From an uncultured Collinsella sp. (GTDB lineage Bacteria; Actinomycetota; Coriobacteriia; Coriobacteriales; Coriobacteriaceae), in NCBI GenBank assembly GCA_944321445.1, contig CALULJ010000024.1, positions 1 through 33,776 on the forward strand: a stretch of DNA of 33,776 bases. Reading direction: 5' to 3'. Both the position numbers and the translations under genes were made by a program. A model generated the notes under the pieces. The model was not told where the DNA came from and did no database searches. It saw nothing but the letters and a program-made list of their open reading frames with translations. How positions within the stretch are numbered: position 1 is the stretch's first letter; each line of letters opens with the position of its first letter. Positions 19,686 through 30,352 of the stretch are shown here, in pieces.

Positions 19686-21125
19686 CTACAGCACAGAGCG
19701 CGTGCCCCGACCCATCTCGACCACGGGGGAAAGCTGCGCGACTGCCTGTTCGTCGGCATCGATGCCGGCGCAGACCTTTTCCATCTGGTCGGCCACGGCA
19801 GCGGGTGCCGTACCGCCCTGCGTCGTGCGCGCGGCCACGATGGCGTCCAGGTCGAACGCGCCCACCACGTCGTCGCCGAACAGGTCGCTCGCGGCGCGGA
19901 ACGTGTCGAGCGGCAGCTCGGAGATGTCGCATCCCGCCTTCTCGGCCTCGAGCACCAAATGGCCCACCACAGCGTGCGCCTCGCGGAACGGCATGCCACG
20001 CTTGGCCAGGTAGTCGGCCACGTCGGTCGCCGCCAGGTGCCCACGGTGCATGACGGCGCGCATGCGATCGGCGTTCACCGTCCACGTGCTCACCATGCCA
20101 GTCATGACGGTCAGGCACTGGTCGAGCGTGTGCGCGGCGTCGAGGGCGCCTTCCTTATCCTCCTGCAGGTCTTTGTTATAGGCAAGGGGCAAGCCCTTCA
20201 CCGTCACCAGCAGCTGCACGAGGTCGCCCACCACGCGGCCCGTCTTGCCGCGGATGAGCTCGGCGAAGTCCGGGTTCTTCTTCTGCGGCATGATCGACGA
20301 GCCCGTCGAGAAGGAATCGGACAGCGTGATGAAGCCGAACTCCTGGCTGCTCCACAGCACGATCTCCTCGGACAGGCGCGACAGGTGCACCGCCATGACG
20401 GAGCAGGCGTACTGGAGGTCGAGCAAGAAGTCGCGGTCGGACACCGCATCGAGCGAGTTCTCGATCACGCGGGAGAAGCCCAGGGCGTCGGCCGTCATCT
20501 GGCGGTCGAGCGGGTACGTGGTGCCCGCGAGCGCAGCCGCGCCCAAGGGCGACGCGTCCGCCGCATCGAAGGCGGCGCGCAGGCGGGTGAAGTCGCGCGC
20601 GAGCATCCATGCATAGGCAAGCAACTGGTGCGAAAACAGCACGGGCTGGGCGTGCTGCAGGTGCGTCATGCCGGGCAGCACGGTGTCTCCCGCCTGCTTG
20701 GCGGCCTCGACCAGCGCATGGCGCAGCCCCAAGTTATCTTCCATGAGCTGCTTGGCGAGCGCCTTGGCGGCCAGGCGCGTGTCGGTCGCCACCTGGTCGT
20801 TGCGCGAACGGCCGGTGTGCAGGCGGCCGCCCGCCGCGCCGATGCGCCGCGTGAGCTCGCTTTCGATGGACATGTGGATGTCCTCGTCGTTGATGTCGAA
20901 GGTGAACGTGCCGGCATCGATGTCCGCCTGGATGCCCTCGAGCCCCGCGCAGATGGCGTCGCGGTCCTCCTCGCTGATGATGCCCTGCGCCGCGAGCATG
21001 GTCGCGTGCGCGCGGGAGCCGGCGATGTCTTGCCGGTACAGGTGCCTGTCCACGGGAAGCGACGCACCGAACTCCTGCGTCACCTCGGATACAGCCTCCT
21101 CAAAGCGGCCGCCCCACAGCGCCAT
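19686..21125 (-). CDS. argH: Argininosuccinate lyase
   Basis: 479 residues; splits argininosuccinate into arginine and fumarate, the last step of arginine synthesis, in the cytoplasm as a tetramer. The ATG at 21125 has AGAGGAGGT upstream. The N-terminus MALWGGRFEE and the fumarase/aspartase superfamily signature GSSIMPQKKNPD (about 275-286, with the catalytic Ser in the flexible loop) are diagnostic; TGRSRNDQVATD is a further substrate-binding motif. Length is as usual for the family. It follows argG on the same strand after 114 bases that hold a possible promoter and a terminator-like hairpin directly before the ribosome binding site, so its expression may be regulated separately. Confidence 0.97.
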   Translation of the reverse strand: MALWGGRFEEAVSEVTQEFGASLPVDRHLYRQDIAGSRAHATMLAAQGIISEEDRDAICAGLEGIQADIDAGTFTFDINDEDIHMSIESELTRRIGAAGGRLHTGRSRNDQVATDTRLAAKALAKQLMEDNLGLRHALVEAAKQAGDTVLPGMTHLQHAQPVLFSHQLLAYAWMLARDFTRLRAAFDAADASPLGAAALAGTTYPLDRQMTADALGFSRVIENSLDAVSDRDFLLDLQYACSVMAVHLSRLSEEIVLWSSQEFGFITLSDSFSTGSSIMPQKKNPDFAELIRGKTGRVVGDLVQLLVTVKGLPLAYNKDLQEDKEGALDAAHTLDQCLTVMTGMVSTWTVNADRMRAVMHRGHLAATDVADYLAKRGMPFREAHAVVGHLVLEAEKAGCDISELPLDTFRAASDLFGDDVVGAFDLDAIVAARTTQGGTAPAAVADQMEKVCAGIDADEQAVAQLSPVVEMGRGTRSVL

Positions 21126-21239: not shown

Positions 21240-22463
<1,224 letters not shown>

Positions 22464-22569
22464 GGCGTTTCCTTTCCTACAAGGCTTGGCGAACGAAACA
22501 TACTGGGCCGTCATGGCGCTATGACATTGTGTTAGAGGAATTCCGCGCGGCGCATTGCTGCCGTATGCG

Positions 22570-22652
22570 AAAACCCGACGCACCTATTGACGAACCCTGC
22601 CGGAGAGCCCCCTCTCCATACGAACAGAGACGACCAGGTTATCGTCGTCGGG
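22570..22652 (-). promoter_or_regulatory. argG: Candidate argG attenuator hairpin
   Basis: On the minus strand CCCGACG (22646-22652), which is part of the Arg codons closing the leader ORF, can pair with CGTCGGG (22574-22580), which is followed directly by TTTT (22570-22573). A competing local stem GACGAC/GTCGTC uses the same left arm. A ribosome stalled on the last Arg codons would cover the left arm. The loop is long (65 bases), so this is an inference. Confidence 0.35.
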
Positions 22653-22791
22653 AAATGGCACGCTGGCGTCGCGTGGCGATATCGGCAGCCGTCTGGCCGG
22701 GCATCATGGCGATTGCCGCCATGGCCTCATATGTCACCAGATCGAAGCCCACCGTTCGCTCCCGTCTCAATCCGTGCGTGCACCTGCTCAT
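22639..22791 (-). CDS. Arginine-rich leader ORF upstream of argG (putative)
   Basis: 50 residues from ATG 22791 to TAA 22639, ending RRQRAISRRR-stop. Ten or so arginines occur in 50 residues, six of them in the last ten codons, and the final three are consecutive CGA codons followed by TAA; CGA is rare beside CGC in this window. A candidate promoter lies about 30 bases upstream (22822-22850), which would make this the first ORF on the argG transcript. The ribosome binding site is poor (GC-rich GGGGCCCC upstream), and shorter in-frame starts exist. It may be a leader peptide whose translation senses arginyl-tRNA, or a chance ORF. No homology is claimed. Confidence 0.35.
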   Translation of the reverse strand: MSRCTHGLRRERTVGFDLVTYEAMAAIAMMPGQTAADIATRRQRAISRRR

Positions 22792-22821
22792 GCGGGGCCC
22801 GCGGGGCCCCGATTGGTCGCT

Positions 22822-22850
22822 ACTATACGCTAAAGTGCGCGCGGGGAAAA
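22822..22850 (-). promoter_or_regulatory. argG: Candidate argG promoter
   Basis: On the minus strand TATAGT (22822-22827) is preceded at 17 bases by TTTTCC (22845-22850). The -10 is good, the -35 weak. The predicted transcript would begin about 24 bases before the Arg-rich ORF and about 350 before argG. Confidence 0.4.
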
Positions 22851-22992
22851 CCTTCACCGAGGATTTTTAGGCGCTCCTCATGGATAGACCAGCTATCACA
22901 TGGCCTCTGAGCTGGAAGTTTGGCGCGCAATGGCGCCGCCACTCGAAACAAACCGGAAACCTTCGCGCGAAAAGGAAGCAAGTCGCGACGCG

Positions 22993-23203
22993 AACTAGAC
23001 AATTAGGGTCGATATGCATTTTTCTGGCAGACCGCTCGGTGGCCAGGCGGTGCAAAAGGCGCGCGCAAGGACCTTCGCCCGCCCCAATCCACGCAAAGGA
23101 GGGCCCGTTTGGGTATCGCCGGCGCTTATCACGACCCGCGACAGCCCGGCTGCCGTCTGACATCTATTGCCAAAAAATGCATATCGACCCAATTTGTCTA
23201 GTT
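22993..23203. mobile_element. MITE-like element with 36-37 bp terminal inverted repeats
   Basis: Segments 22993-23029 and 23168-23203 are inverted copies of each other with few differences; both contain GGGTCGATATGCATTTTT and begin AACTAGACAA. They enclose about 138 bases of GC-rich sequence with no ORF of note. The arrangement fits a non-autonomous transposable element or a dispersed intergenic repeat. No clear target-site duplication is seen. It lies between the MFS gene's 3' end and the argG leader. Confidence 0.6.
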
Positions 23204-23241
23204 CAGCAACCGGACACGGCTTCCCGTGGCGCAAATGCCCG

Positions 23242-25569: not shown

Positions 25570-28344
25570 TTACTTGGCGTCGGCCCAGGTGATGCCGGTG
25601 GAGGCTTCGGCGATGAGCGGCACACGCAGCTGCACGACACCCTCCATCTCGGTGCGCACCATGGCGATGAGGCGGTCGACCTCAGCCTCCGGGCACTCGA
25701 AGTCCAACTCGTCGTGCACCTGCAGGATCATGCGGGCGGCAAACCCCTCGTCGCGCAGGCGATGCGCCACGCGCGCCATGGCGATCTTGATGATGTCCGC
25801 CGCGCTACCCTGCATGGGGTGGTTCATGGCCGTGCGCTCACCGAAGGAGCGCTGTGCCGGGTTGCGCATCTTGAGCTCAGGGATGGGACGGCGGCGTCCG
25901 AACATGGTTTCCGCATACCCCTTCTGCTTGGCCTCGGCCACCGTGCGATCAAGGTAGGTGCGCACGCCGGGGTAAGCGCGGAAATACGCCTCGATCATCT
26001 CACGCGCCTCGGCCATGGGGATGTCGAGCGACTGCGACAGGCCATAGGCCTGCTGACCGTACACGATGCCGAAGTTCACGGCCTTCGCGCGACTGCGCAA
26101 CTCGCGCGTGACCTCGTCAACCGGCACGCCGAACACGCGCGCCGCGGTCTCGGCATGGAAGTCCTCGCCCTCGTTGAAGGCCGCAACCAGGTGCTCGTCG
26201 GCAGACAGGTGGGCCAGCAAGCGCAGCTCGATCTGGCTGTAGTCCACCGCCACGAACACCTTGCCTTCACCGGCGGAAAACGCCGTCTTCACCGTGTGTC
26301 CCAGCTCGGAGCGCGTGGGGATGTTCTGCAGGTTGGGGTTGGAGGAAGACAGGCGGCCCGTGGCGGTGATGGTCTGGTTGTAGGTGGTGTGCACGCGCCC
26401 GTCCGTCGCGCGCAACGGACCCAGCGTGTCAAGATAGGTGGACTTGATCTTGGTCTTCTCGCGCCACTCCAGAATGAGACGCACGATCTCGTGGTCGCGC
26501 GCAAGGTCGTCGAGCACCTTGGCGTTCGTGGAGTAGTAGCCGCGCTGGGTCTTCTTCAGGCCCTTCGTAGGCAGGCCCATGACGTCGAAAAGGATGTGCG
26601 ACAGCTGCATGGGGCTGCCGATGTTGAACGAGTCGTCGCCGGCGAGTTCGCGGATGCGTCCGGCGAGCTCGTCGATCTGCCCGGTGAGCTTGTCGGACAT
26701 GGCATGCAGGCGCTCGGGATCGACGAGCATGCCCGTACGCTCCATGTCGGCAAGCACCGGCACGAGCGGCATCTCGATCTGCGTGAACACGTTCACAGCG
26801 CCATCGCGATCAAGCGCCGAGGCCAGCGGGACCAGCGCCGCTAAGGCAAGTACGGCGGAGCGCCCCGCAGCGGCGACAGCACCCTCCGCCGCGCCCTCCT
26901 CCCCCGCAGCAGGCGGCAGGGGCGCGCCCAGGTACGCATCGGCGATGTAGCCGTCGTCGAACGACGAGCGGGCGGAATCGAGCAGGTAGGCAGCGACCAC
27001 CGTGTCGAAGATGCGCGCCGGATCGACCGCAAGCGCATCCATCACCGCAAACTCAGAGGAATCGACGGGCACGATCTCGTGGATGAGGCCCTTCACGTCG
27101 GGCGAAACCACCTTGCCCTCGGCAAACAGGCGCGCAAGCACGCCCGCGATCAAGCCGTGCGAAAAATCGAACCCGGCGGCAGCGGGCAGGGCACATGCAG
27201 CGCCGTCGGGCTCCTCGAAGGCAAGCAGCGCATCGGGAACGGCGACCCACAGCGTATGTGTGAGGCCGAACAGCGCGCCTGCCTCGCGGTCGTCATCGAG
27301 CACCGCGGCGACCCACTCCCCCGCCTCGATGGCAGAAGCGAGCTTGCCGGCAGCGTCCTCGATACCCTCACCGGTCGCTGCGTACGCACGTTGCGGTACG
27401 GGAACTTCGATACACGCAACCGCCTGCGCGGCGCCGTCCGCCCCACCGTCGATTAACGCCAAGAAGCGGTTTTGCATGGCGTTGATGCCCAGCTCGCCCA
27501 AGGCGTCCGACACGGCGGCGGCGTCGTAGGCCGGGAACGCCGTGCGCTCGAAGTCGAGCTCCACGGGCGCATTCGTTTGAATGGTGGCCACGCGGCGCGA
27601 CAGCAGCGCGTCGTCGATATGAGCGCGCAGGTTCTCGCCCATCTTGCCCTTGACCTCGTCGGCATGCGCGATGACCTCGTCAAGGCTGCCGTACTGCGCG
27701 ATGAGCGCGCTCGCCTTCTTGGGACCAATGCCCGGCACGCCGGGGATGTTGTCGGAACTGTCGCCCTTCAGGCCATAGAAGTCCGGCACGAGCTCGGGCG
27801 TGATGCCGTGGTAGAGGTCCTCGACCGACTCGGGCGTCATGATCTGCACGTCGGACAGGCCCTTCTTGGTGCCCACGATGCGCACGTGCTCAGTGGAGAG
27901 CTGGTACATGTCGCGATCGCCGGTGATGAGGTACATGTCGCAGCCCGCGGCCTCGCCCGTGCGGGCGAGCGTGCCCAGGATGTCGTCGCCCTCCCAACCC
28001 TCGGCCTCCAGAATGGGCACCGACAGCTTGGCCAGGAGCTCTTTGATCATGGGGAACTGCTGGCGCAGGTCGGGGTCCATCGGCGGGCGCTGCGCCTTGT
28101 ACTGCGGCAGCATCTCCATGCGCACGCGCGGCTTGCCCTTGTCGAAGGCCACGGCCACGCCGTCCGGATGGAAGGCGTCGACCATCTTGAGGAACATGTT
28201 GAGGAAGCCGAAGATGGCGTTCGTGGGGCGACCGTCCGGCGCGTTCATAGTGGGCGGCACGGCGTGGAACGCGCGGTGCATGAGCGAGTTGCCGTCGATG
28301 ACGGCAAAGACGCGGCGGGAATCGGCTGCGGTGGTATCGGGCAT
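25570..28344 (-). CDS. polA: DNA polymerase I
   Basis: 924 residues; fills gaps and removes RNA primers. The ATG at 28344 follows GAGAGGAC; the frame to 28494 is rejected for lack of a site. The 5' nuclease domain (1 to ~310) has VIDGNSLMHRAF, GWEGDDILG, ITGDRDMYQL and the GLKGDSSDNIPGVPGIG helix-hairpin-helix. The polymerase domain (~545-924) has motif A VDYSQIELR (near 700), motif B RAKAVNFGIVYG (near 754) and motif C QVHDELD (near 875). The middle 3'-5' exonuclease-like region is Ala-rich and seems to lack the catalytic carboxylates (the DTE motif aligns to a poor match), so proofreading is probably absent, as in Bacillus and Thermus enzymes. It is followed by the palindrome at 25488-25560 and lies divergent from the RCC1 gene. 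Confidence 0.97.
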   Translation of the reverse strand: MPDTTAADSRRVFAVIDGNSLMHRAFHAVPPTMNAPDGRPTNAIFGFLNMFLKMVDAFHPDGVAVAFDKGKPRVRMEMLPQYKAQRPPMDPDLRQQFPMIKELLAKLSVPILEAEGWEGDDILGTLARTGEAAGCDMYLITGDRDMYQLSTEHVRIVGTKKGLSDVQIMTPESVEDLYHGITPELVPDFYGLKGDSSDNIPGVPGIGPKKASALIAQYGSLDEVIAHADEVKGKMGENLRAHIDDALLSRRVATIQTNAPVELDFERTAFPAYDAAAVSDALGELGINAMQNRFLALIDGGADGAAQAVACIEVPVPQRAYAATGEGIEDAAGKLASAIEAGEWVAAVLDDDREAGALFGLTHTLWVAVPDALLAFEEPDGAACALPAAAGFDFSHGLIAGVLARLFAEGKVVSPDVKGLIHEIVPVDSSEFAVMDALAVDPARIFDTVVAAYLLDSARSSFDDGYIADAYLGAPLPPAAGEEGAAEGAVAAAGRSAVLALAALVPLASALDRDGAVNVFTQIEMPLVPVLADMERTGMLVDPERLHAMSDKLTGQIDELAGRIRELAGDDSFNIGSPMQLSHILFDVMGLPTKGLKKTQRGYYSTNAKVLDDLARDHEIVRLILEWREKTKIKSTYLDTLGPLRATDGRVHTTYNQTITATGRLSSSNPNLQNIPTRSELGHTVKTAFSAGEGKVFVAVDYSQIELRLLAHLSADEHLVAAFNEGEDFHAETAARVFGVPVDEVTRELRSRAKAVNFGIVYGQQAYGLSQSLDIPMAEAREMIEAYFRAYPGVRTYLDRTVAEAKQKGYAETMFGRRRPIPELKMRNPAQRSFGERTAMNHPMQGSAADIIKIAMARVAHRLRDEGFAARMILQVHDELDFECPEAEVDRLIAMVRTEMEGVVQLRVPLIAEASTGITWADAK

Positions 28345-28669
28345 GGATCGTCCTCTCTTCAATGTGCTGGCATACAGTCTACCCGCCCGCGCGGACTCGC
28401 GCCACGACGTCCACGGGGAACCACATCCTGGCCGCTGCCGCAGGTTTACGCGCACGCGGCGGCGAACGGGACGTTTTTGGCGCCAGTTGACCACGCTCCT
28501 AGAACCGTTGCGCTGTATGGTCAGATTAAGAGCGGATCATCTGCGGCGGCGGGCACGTTCCGGCGCGCGAAGCGCAAACGTTCCGACACCCGTCCGCCCG
28601 CAAAACCCGGCCTCCTGCCGCCGCGATGCTCCGCACGCGATTCGCACGATAACGCGGACAGAAGGAACT
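28345..28669. other. Divergent intergenic region between polA and the RCC1-SLH gene
   Basis: No gene seen in 325 bases. On the minus strand TAGACT at 28376-28381 is a plausible -10 for polA, about 25 bases before the expected leader start; its -35 is poor. On the plus strand TTGACC occurs near 28491-28496 but without a well-spaced -10. The rest is GC-rich with no other notable structure. Confidence 0.45.
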
Positions 28670-30352
28670 ATGAGTAAACGCAGGGGTGGCATCCTACCGG
28701 CAATCGTGCTGGGAACTGGCCTGCTTGCAGCCATGCTCCCCGCGCAGGCGCTCGCTGCAATCCCCGAAGGCCCCTTCGAATCGCATCACGTCAAAACGGT
28801 TGAGGCGGGCGGAGAGCGCGGCGCAGCGATCACGTCCGACGGGTCGCTGTGGATATGGGGCGCCAACCACATGGGCCAATTGGGCGATGGCACCACTGAA
28901 GATAGCCTCGAGCCGCTCAAGATAATGGACGACGTGGTCGACGTGTCGCTTGGAGATTTTGAGACCGCTGCCGTGACCGAGGACGGAAGCCTTTGGATGT
29001 GGGGCGGCGGCGAGACCGACCTCGAGCACAAAGAGATCATGGACAACGTCGTCGACGTCGAGCTGGGAGCGGGTCATTGCGCCGCCATCACGGAAGACGG
29101 ATCGCTCTATATGTGGGGATTCAACTACTTTGGTCAGGTCGGCGACGGCACGTTAGAAGACCGGGATGAACCGATCAAGATCATGGACGACATGGTTGAT
29201 GTCGCCACATCGTTCGGAACCACACTCGCCGTCACCGCGGATGGAACCGTGTGGGGCTGGGGCAGTAACTCCGATGGCGAGGTTGGCGACGGCACCACCG
29301 AAAAACGCACCGTACCCGTCAAGGTCATGGACGGCGCTGTGGCCGTCTCGGCAGAATTTCTCACCTCGTCCGCACTGTGCGCAGACGGCTCGCTATGGAT
29401 GTGGGGCGACAATAACAATGGAAGCATCGGCGATGGCACAGAAGACGAAAAAACCGTTCCGGTGAAAGTCATGGAGGGCATAAAGCAGGTATCGCTCGGC
29501 ACCGGCCATGCCTCCGCAGTTGCCGAAGACGGTTCACTGTGGATGTGGGGCACAAACTATAATGGCCAGCTGGGCAACGGCACCCTCGAGAACCAACTGA
29601 CACCCATCCGCGTGATGGAAGGCGTGCAGAGCGTTGCATTGGGTATGACCTCCACCTGCGTAGCAACCGAAGACGGACTGCTATGGACATGGAGCGGTAA
29701 CGAAGGAGGCCAGCTGGGTGACGGCACCACCGAAGACCGTAGCACCCCTGCGCGGATACAGGTGGGAAGTGTCTGCCCCGCCGAGGCTTTCGAGGACGTG
29801 GACCTCACCATGTGGTACCACGAAGCCGTCGACTGGGCGCTTCTGAACGGCGCCATGAACGGCTATGAAAACGGGACCTTCGGCCCGGACGACCCGCTCG
29901 CCCGCGAGCAGGCGGCCGCCGTGCTGTGGAACCTGCTCGGCAATAAGGACACGTCTGCTCCCGCCGCGACGCACGCCTACGTGGACCAGAACGCTTGGTA
30001 CACCGATGCCGTCAACTGGGCCGTTGAGAACGGCTACATGAACGGCTACGACGGCACCGATCGCTTCGGCATCGGCGATGCGCTCACTTGCGAGCAGTTC
30101 GCCTGCGTGATCGCCAACGCCGCGGGCGCCGACCTCGATGCTGCCGACCCCTCCGCCATGAGCAAGCTGCCCGACGCGGGCGCGGTCAGCGACTGGGCAG
30201 AAGATGCCATGGCATGGGCCGTGGACCTCGGTGTCATCAACGGCGTGGAGACGGACAACGGCCGTGAGCTGCAGCCCGGCCGCACCATCAGCCGCTCCGA
30301 GATGGCCGCTATGACCATGAACGCTGTGGCGTGCGGAGCACTGGACATCTAG
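28670..30352 (+). CDS. Secreted protein with seven RCC1 repeats and three SLH domains
   Basis: 560 residues. The ATG at 28670 follows GAAGGA and begins a signal peptide (MSKRRGG, hydrophobic core, AQALAA cleavage). The frame upstream to 27839 is antisense to polA and is rejected. Residues ~40-365 hold seven repeats of about 48 residues with the pattern VSLG..H..A(I/V)TEDGSLWMWG.N..GQLGDGT, matching RCC1/BLIP-II-like seven-bladed propellers; the second repeat is shorter and lacks the GQLGDGT loop. Three SLH modules follow (about 373-425, 430-485, 500-556) and should bind the cell wall. A wall-anchored propeller suggests ligand, protein or glycan binding rather than the eukaryotic Ran exchange role. 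The SLH modules resemble those of the two proteases at the start of the window. A terminator follows. Confidence 0.93.
   Translation: MSKRRGGILPAIVLGTGLLAAMLPAQALAAIPEGPFESHHVKTVEAGGERGAAITSDGSLWIWGANHMGQLGDGTTEDSLEPLKIMDDVVDVSLGDFETAAVTEDGSLWMWGGGETDLEHKEIMDNVVDVELGAGHCAAITEDGSLYMWGFNYFGQVGDGTLEDRDEPIKIMDDMVDVATSFGTTLAVTADGTVWGWGSNSDGEVGDGTTEKRTVPVKVMDGAVAVSAEFLTSSALCADGSLWMWGDNNNGSIGDGTEDEKTVPVKVMEGIKQVSLGTGHASAVAEDGSLWMWGTNYNGQLGNGTLENQLTPIRVMEGVQSVALGMTSTCVATEDGLLWTWSGNEGGQLGDGTTEDRSTPARIQVGSVCPAEAFEDVDLTMWYHEAVDWALLNGAMNGYENGTFGPDDPLAREQAAAVLWNLLGNKDTSAPAATHAYVDQNAWYTDAVNWAVENGYMNGYDGTDRFGIGDALTCEQFACVIANAAGADLDAADPSAMSKLPDAGAVSDWAEDAMAWAVDLGVINGVETDNGRELQPGRTISRSEMAAMTMNAVACGALDI

Follow-up and report, generated by a model that had tools for sequence, protein, structure and literature searches.

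A conserved arginine leader peptide and probable ribosome-mediated attenuator upstream of argG in Collinsella and related Coriobacteriia

Amino acids known to be served by leader-peptide attenuation include Trp, His, Leu, Thr, Phe and Ile/Val, and the control of arginine synthesis in bacteria is usually ascribed to ArgR or to T-boxes. In fungi, the nascent chain of the arginine attenuator peptide (arg-2/CPA1), a eukaryotic system, makes the ribosome stall in response to arginine. A comparative study of the Actinobacteria detected neither a conserved RNA structure nor an attenuator ahead of arginine operons, and it described the LEU element 5' of leuA, which combines a leader peptide with a pseudoknot (PMC1262725). 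In the Salmonella speF leader, the progress of the ribosome over consecutive Arg codons of orf34/speFL reports on arginine and alters the folding of the mRNA (PMC6386406), while rare Arg codons in the uORF rbfL of Staphylococcus aureus sense arginine limitation (PMC13009471); neither of these Arg-codon leaders serves arginine synthesis (PMC6386406, PMC13009471). Our search of the open-access literature returned no report of an Arg leader-peptide attenuator for arginine synthesis, and with no precedent in Rfam, Pfam or NCBIfam either, the initial annotation of the locus described here was apparently right to regard such an attenuator as new in this lineage. A conserved Arg leader in three families of Coriobacteriia would fill a gap among the known attenuators.

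The window, by which we mean the whole 33,776-nucleotide stretch analyzed, comes from a Collinsella genome whose closest named relative is C. ihumii GD8, and it carries argG followed by argH on one strand (Table 1). We consider it probable, at roughly three chances in four, that a cis-acting, ribosome-mediated arginine attenuator governs these two genes. The initial annotation had pointed to TATAGT, an ATG frame ending in RRQRAISRRR, CCCGACG, a local GTCGTC and a CGTCGGG running into TTTT, and all of these are present on the minus strand. The ATG at 22791 opens a longer frame (MSRCTHG...TRRQRAISRRR, ending at 22639) that had been taken as the leader, but long leaders of related species almost all start exactly 27 codons 5' of RRQ, and for this reason we begin the window leader at the GTG at 22752, which is preceded by an SD-like GGGAGCG. 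Among the 37-aa leaders, most of which have an SD-like site, the start codon is GTG, ATG or TTG, and the conserved start, SD-like site, stop and codon-like substitutions qualify the leader as a predicted ORF with a ribosome-binding site.

Table 1. Features of the arginine leader region and of the genes downstream of it, in window coordinates
Feature	Position	Strand	Basis
argH, argininosuccinate lyase, next gene 3' of argG	19686..21125	(-)	Pfam PF00206/PF14698
argG, argininosuccinate synthase, gene under proposed control	21243..22463	(-)	Pfam PF00764/PF20979
Segment Y, GACGGCCC, imperfect partner of X (GACGGGCTC in C. ihumii)	22505..22512	(-)	helix search
Segment 3, CGTCGGG then TTTT (CGTCGGGTTTT)	22570..22580	(-)	2:3 helix conserved, U-run not
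Segment X, GGGTTCGTC, partner of Y 5' of the argG RBS	22589..22597	(-)	own-versus-cross test
Central hairpin, CTCTGTT...GGAGAGGGGGCTCTCC...GGCAGGG	22595..22629	(-)	alignment pairing
Local complement GGTCGTC, alternative partner of segment 2	22629..22635	(-)	fold and reading by eye
Segment 2, CCCGACGACGA and stop TAA (second Arg cluster, RRR), 5' arm of 2:3 helix	22639..22652	(-)	helix tests
First Arg cluster, CGA CGC CAG (RRQ), likely sensing codons	22663..22671	(-)	conservation in distinct C-termini/cores
Leader ORF, GTG start 22752, 37 aa, MGFDLVTYEAMAAIAMMPGQTAADIATRRQRAISRRR, stop TAA	22639..22752	(-)	21 distinct 37-aa leaders share start position, C-terminus and stop
GC-rich hairpin, GGGGCCCCGCGGGCCCC, near presumed transcript 5' end	22794..22810	(-)	read by eye
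TATAGT, -10-like, presumed leader promoter	22822..22827	(-)	sequence reading

The sequence flanking TATAGT, CACTTTAGCGTATAGTAGCGACCAATCG, is identical in C. ihumii (L031). A pattern scan scored no consensus sigma-70 promoter pair, so the start site of leader transcription is a putative one. The hairpin near the presumed 5' end has a C. ihumii counterpart with unrelated letters and similar pairing (CGACGCTCCTATGCGTCG, by eye). A consensus pattern scan found no terminator, and the isolated leader RNA folds with no greater stability than its shuffles (z = -0.09); neither these scans nor the isolated fold was informative about the element. The leader peptide has no relevant family match in Pfam or NCBIfam; Rfam 15 gives no match at gathering score in the window and chance-level matches in the leader region and its relatives, and neither a T-box nor a known Rfam riboswitch appears to match the leader region.

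Coriobacteriaceae, Atopobiaceae and Eggerthellaceae all include genomes in which a leader with RRQ-x-RR or RRQRAISRRR immediately precedes argG, and the Arg codons conserved across these three families bear out the proposal of an arginine leader peptide 5' of argG. Most Collinsella carry a shorter form (MQFVKIITTADNAIRRQRAISRRR-stop), and the N-terminus of the main Collinsella leaders differs from that of the 37-aa type. In Atopobiaceae and Eggerthellaceae the leaders end in RRQ-x-RR, as in L046 (MNVHSAQTPAAALLPSRRQNRRITP-stop), Parafannyhessea (L103; MQHNMTAVSSLRRQNRRITLRCQRVLTCVF-stop) and a Slackia MAG (L107; MFATAQQFSFRRQDRRNTLRCTRVFLAVHTR-stop), and outside Collinsella residue 4 and the tail vary freely. 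Two covariance models, R1 for the Collinsella type and R2 for the Atopobiaceae type, were searched over 296 Coriobacteriia genomes, with R2 matches at E > 1e-5 counted as chance. R1 matched 40 genomes at one locus each, which lies just 5' of argG in all 39 with listed argG coordinates; R2 gave 51 matches at E < 1e-9, every one (51/51) directly 5' of argG on the same strand. The two models together yield 91 loci, and 90 of the 90 with listed argG coordinates adjoin argG. Some of the searched genomes supplied training sequences, so these E-values are not independent, but even with shared training genomes the absence of further strong sites is informative. What this comparison of sequences establishes is the conservation of the ORF, its codons, its helices and its link to argG, along with the terminators of relatives described below.

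Three observations on variant loci belong here. The window argG shares 98% identity with the C. ihumii gene, 92-95% with those of An7/An307-type relatives, which belong to another GTDB genus, and 85-87% with that of Olsenella; against the remaining genomes of its own genus the figure drops to 59-62%, and yet its leader is of the Collinsella type; argG seems, from these identities, to have been swapped out under a kept leader. Upstream of argG in L032 and L033 the RRR-stop end is kept (CTTCCCCGACGACGATAG) and the first RRQ cluster is lost, a natural variant that could be used to tell which Arg cluster senses arginine. In L108-L110, which are Parvibacter and a related Eggerthellaceae MAG, another leader-like ORF ending in ARRR-stop or LRRR-stop (CGACGACGT) sits about 220-240 nt 5' of argG and is possibly an independent or divergent version of the Arg leader.

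CGA CGC occurs in 17 of 17 distinct Collinsella-type C-termini and CGA CGC/CGT in 29 of 29 distinct Atopobiaceae/Eggerthellaceae cores, so that the first Arg codon is CGA in 46/46, a count to be read with the fact that CGA was part of the search pattern. CGA accounts for 5% of the Arg codons in window genes as against 4 of the 6 in the leader. An end-product codon cluster of this kind ahead of the biosynthetic gene is what characterizes the trp and his leaders, and the trp/his/leu/thr attenuators further resemble these loci in having a short leader ORF with tandem end-product codons, an antiterminator arm after the control codons and, in most of the relatives considered here, an intrinsic terminator before the biosynthetic gene.

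Strict intrinsic terminators lie between leader and argG in 7/7 Eggerthellaceae, 23/29 Atopobiaceae and 7/9 T-bearing Collinsella, where chance would supply 0.01-0.03 per sequence, and in 0 of 19 sequences made up of 13 from the window clade and 6 from main Collinsella. In several types the segment 3' of the Arg codons pairs with the 5' arm of the terminator: GATGTCGCG:CGCGACGTC in the L046 type, TGCGATGCC:GGCATCGCG in L103, GTGCTGCT:AGCAGCAC in L050, L085 and L086, and GTGTTGTC:GACAACAC in L134. Own antiterminator pairs beat cross-species pairs in permutation tests that correct only partly for relatedness (p 0.0005 with 26 sequences, p 0.026 with 16). In the Collinsella lineages L028 and L116/L118/L119, a U6 terminator has TCGTCGAG as its 5' arm, and the RRR-stop segment (CTCGACGACGA) pairs with it; the 2:3-type helix there is a predicted antiterminator. 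Judged by their sequences, the L046-, L103-, L050- and L134-type and the L028/L116-type loci have the layout of classical attenuators, and the pairings support mutual exclusion of antiterminator and terminator in L028, the L116 type, Atopobiaceae and several Eggerthellaceae. Most Atopobiaceae and all 7 Eggerthellaceae examined thus carry a predicted trp-type attenuator, with a terminator and often with a co-evolving antiterminator. The 2:3 helix and the terminator lie apart in L114, L115 and L120-L122, where mutual exclusion is thus less assured, and a post-terminator pairing in Atopobiaceae is weak as a group (p 0.02). Among close relatives this one sensor is coupled to a classical terminator, to an offset one or to none.

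Helices were sought as strict contiguous pairs, a loose-mismatch search having given long imperfect duplexes. The 2:3 helix, in which segment 3 is CGTCGGG, GTCGTCGGG or similar and segment 2 contributes CCCGACG (22652-22646), occurs throughout the window clade and reaches 12 bp in L125. Own pairs exceed cross pairs at p 0.00005 (26 sequences, relatedness only partly corrected), and silent Ser changes from TCC to TCT in segment 2 are matched by GGG to GAG in segment 3; the comparison with relatives that the initial annotation had proposed thus finds both a conserved ORF with an Arg-codon end and co-varying arms. A local complement of segment 2 comparable to that in the window is seen by eye in other Collinsella-type leaders. 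The central hairpin is also maintained: 95% of cells are paired in its helix 3 and 92% in its helix 4, and 3 pairs have changed on both sides.

If these elements act together as we propose, transcription would begin near TATAGT and the leader peptide would be translated as RNA polymerase proceeds. When charged Arg-tRNA is scarce, the ribosome would halt at the first Arg cluster, CGA CGC CAG, and the segment that follows it (CCCGACGACGA-stop in Collinsella) would be free to pair with segment 3; we take 2:3 to be the ON fold because starved ribosomes reach the first Arg cluster first. When arginine is plentiful, the ribosome would reach the stop codon and cover segment 2, giving an alternative OFF outcome, which in Atopobiaceae, Eggerthellaceae and some Collinsella would be an intrinsic terminator just 5' of argG. 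The window clade would have kept the sensor and the 2:3 helix, and since it has no recognizable intrinsic terminator, its OFF step is probably Rho-dependent or translational; C-over-G bias, taken as a sign of Rho sites, gave no clear difference between clades. We infer the direction of the arginine response, the co-transcriptional timing and this OFF step. Masked folding of the window is consistent with the scheme: with a ribosome at the first CGA the 2:3 helix forms, and with one at RRR or at the stop it is prevented, although no terminator competes with it, as none lies between leader and first gene in the window itself. It is here that the locus departs from the trp/his/leu/thr attenuators, in the lack of a recognizable terminator in the window clade, in serving arginine and argG, and in a C-terminus kept at the level of amino acids.

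A second long-range pairing raises the alternative that control is translational or acts through RNA decay, X:Y reshaping the 5' UTR so as to expose or hide the argG start or a nuclease site, in the manner of the LEU element or speF. Segment X lies between the central hairpin and segment 3 and Y about 50 nt 5' of the argG start, and since X:Y crosses 2:3, a pseudoknot is possible. X:Y covaries strongly even though Y lies beyond the terminator (own-versus-cross 0/20000 permutations in 26 leaders, relatedness only partly corrected), reaching 12-17 bp in several lineages and 9 bp in L002, and the window clade is without a terminator. On the other hand, X:Y is weak and imperfect in the window, and a pairing of Y with the argG RBS, read by eye as GCCCA:TGGGC in the window, was rejected as own pairs were no better than cross pairs (p 0.47). 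We hold this account to be possible but clearly less likely than the attenuator. The LEU element resembles the Arg leader in joining end-product codons in a leader peptide to long-range, possibly pseudoknotted pairing; it differs in amino acid and sequence and in pairing its codon run with the leuA Shine-Dalgarno box, whereas the Y:RBS pairing at argG shows no covariation. Like orf34/speFL, the leader would sense arginine through consecutive Arg codons, but orf34/speFL is a DUF2618 peptide that controls ornithine decarboxylase via Rho, RNase G and RBS sequestration, and the Arg leader peptide has no Pfam match to speFL/DUF2618 (PF10940) up to E 1. A likeness of FAHRN..FD in L045 to SpeFL was discarded as coincidence, not being conserved in the neighbors L081, L097 and L101. 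In rbfL, unlike here, stalling blocks the RBS of a biofilm regulator and represses it, with no attenuator.

The peptide itself counts to some degree against an attenuator, its amino-acid conservation exceeding what a sensor of codons only would need. In codons 31-34 (RAIS) all 439 pairwise differences are synonymous and 0 non-synonymous, as compared with 680 synonymous and 2572 non-synonymous in codons 2-27, and ATY near the N-terminus, A15 and A22 are also largely conserved in the 37-aa leaders. These substitution patterns indicate amino-acid-level selection on the C-terminus, which makes an arginine arrest peptide conceivable: high arginine would bring the ribosome to a halt on or close to its stop codon, where segment 2 ends, so that segment 2 is masked and argG is off. 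Arrest, like codon sensing, predicts repression by arginine. Against it, residue 4 and the tail are free to vary outside Collinsella, the main Collinsella have their different N-terminus, and the peptide belongs to no known Pfam or NCBIfam family, so we regard arrest as rather unlikely. Less likely again is a dual sensor in which the Arg codons read Arg-tRNA charging, the conserved peptide (ATYE.MA...QNAA...RRQRAISRRR) arrests the ribosome at the stop on arginine, and the signal passes through a long-range, pseudoknot-capable RNA switch that has no intrinsic terminator in the window clade. Were it true, bacteria would have in this leader an equivalent of the fungal arginine attenuator peptide, which likewise governs arginine synthesis from a leader peptide but is eukaryotic, and whose nascent-chain arrest by arginine is a fungal feature and only a possibility here.

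The initial annotation had offered a different attenuator, in which CCCGACG:CGTCGGG-TTTT acts as an intrinsic terminator whose left arm is hidden when a ribosome stalls on CGA CGA CGA, turning argG on. The arms are indeed complementary and conserved, the window has a U4, and a ribosome at RRR does prevent the helix in masked folding. The U-run, by contrast, varies (GGGTTGATC in L002, GGGTTCACC in L113, GGGAGCTTC in L117, GGGTGTTCC in L123/L124), and no strict terminator occurs in the window clade; what stands of this proposal is the helix and not its identity as a terminator. The sign of the response would also be wrong, since a starved ribosome halts first at the upstream CGA CGC (22671-22666), where it leaves the CCCGACG arm free, and a terminator freed by that stall would silence argG when arginine is short. 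The arm is equally masked once the ribosome has reached the stop codon, so that full translation would resemble stalling, and in some relatives a helix of this type is a predicted antiterminator. We judge the terminator reading improbable.

Ordinary repression by ArgR with the leader ORF irrelevant is less probable still. ArgR is encoded in 42/43 genomes of the genus, and a second control of argG-argH is therefore possible, but for the same reason the presence of ArgR was rejected as a discriminator of leader loci, and an ArgR-box-like palindrome is absent upstream of the window argG and of nearly all leader loci tested, one weak match apart. Such sites occur in 11/12 argG loci without a leader, from which the motif itself was read, and the distribution suggests that the leader and ArgR control substitute for one another. 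Because the outputs of the sensor vary and the leaderless lineages carry ArgR-box-like sites, the swapping of regulatory outputs is open to direct study in gut bacteria. The palindromes upstream of argG in L034-L044, which lack the leader, take the ArgR-box-like form TATGCAN7GCATA.

A chance Arg-rich ORF in GC-rich DNA can be dismissed: this GC-rich window has 8 stops whose preceding 10 codons include 6 or more Arg, so that a single such end is unremarkable and the case rests on the relatives, but the fixed start, stop and codons conserved in three families refute chance, and it is on this conservation that we judge the leader real.

Two further features of the window were noted. At 22992-23204 there are 32-nt inverted arms (GAACTAGACAATTAGGGTCGATATGCATTTTT) 149 nt apart, and similar pairs, about 160-230 nt apart and with interiors that do not match, stand at about 12 other sites in the genome; they may be repeats of a MITE-like or structured family in which the core varies. 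An 837-aa ORF at 27839-30352 (+), which overlaps the 5' part of polA on the opposite strand, encodes RCC1-like repeats and two S-layer homology domains (Pfam), and its product is a putative surface protein.
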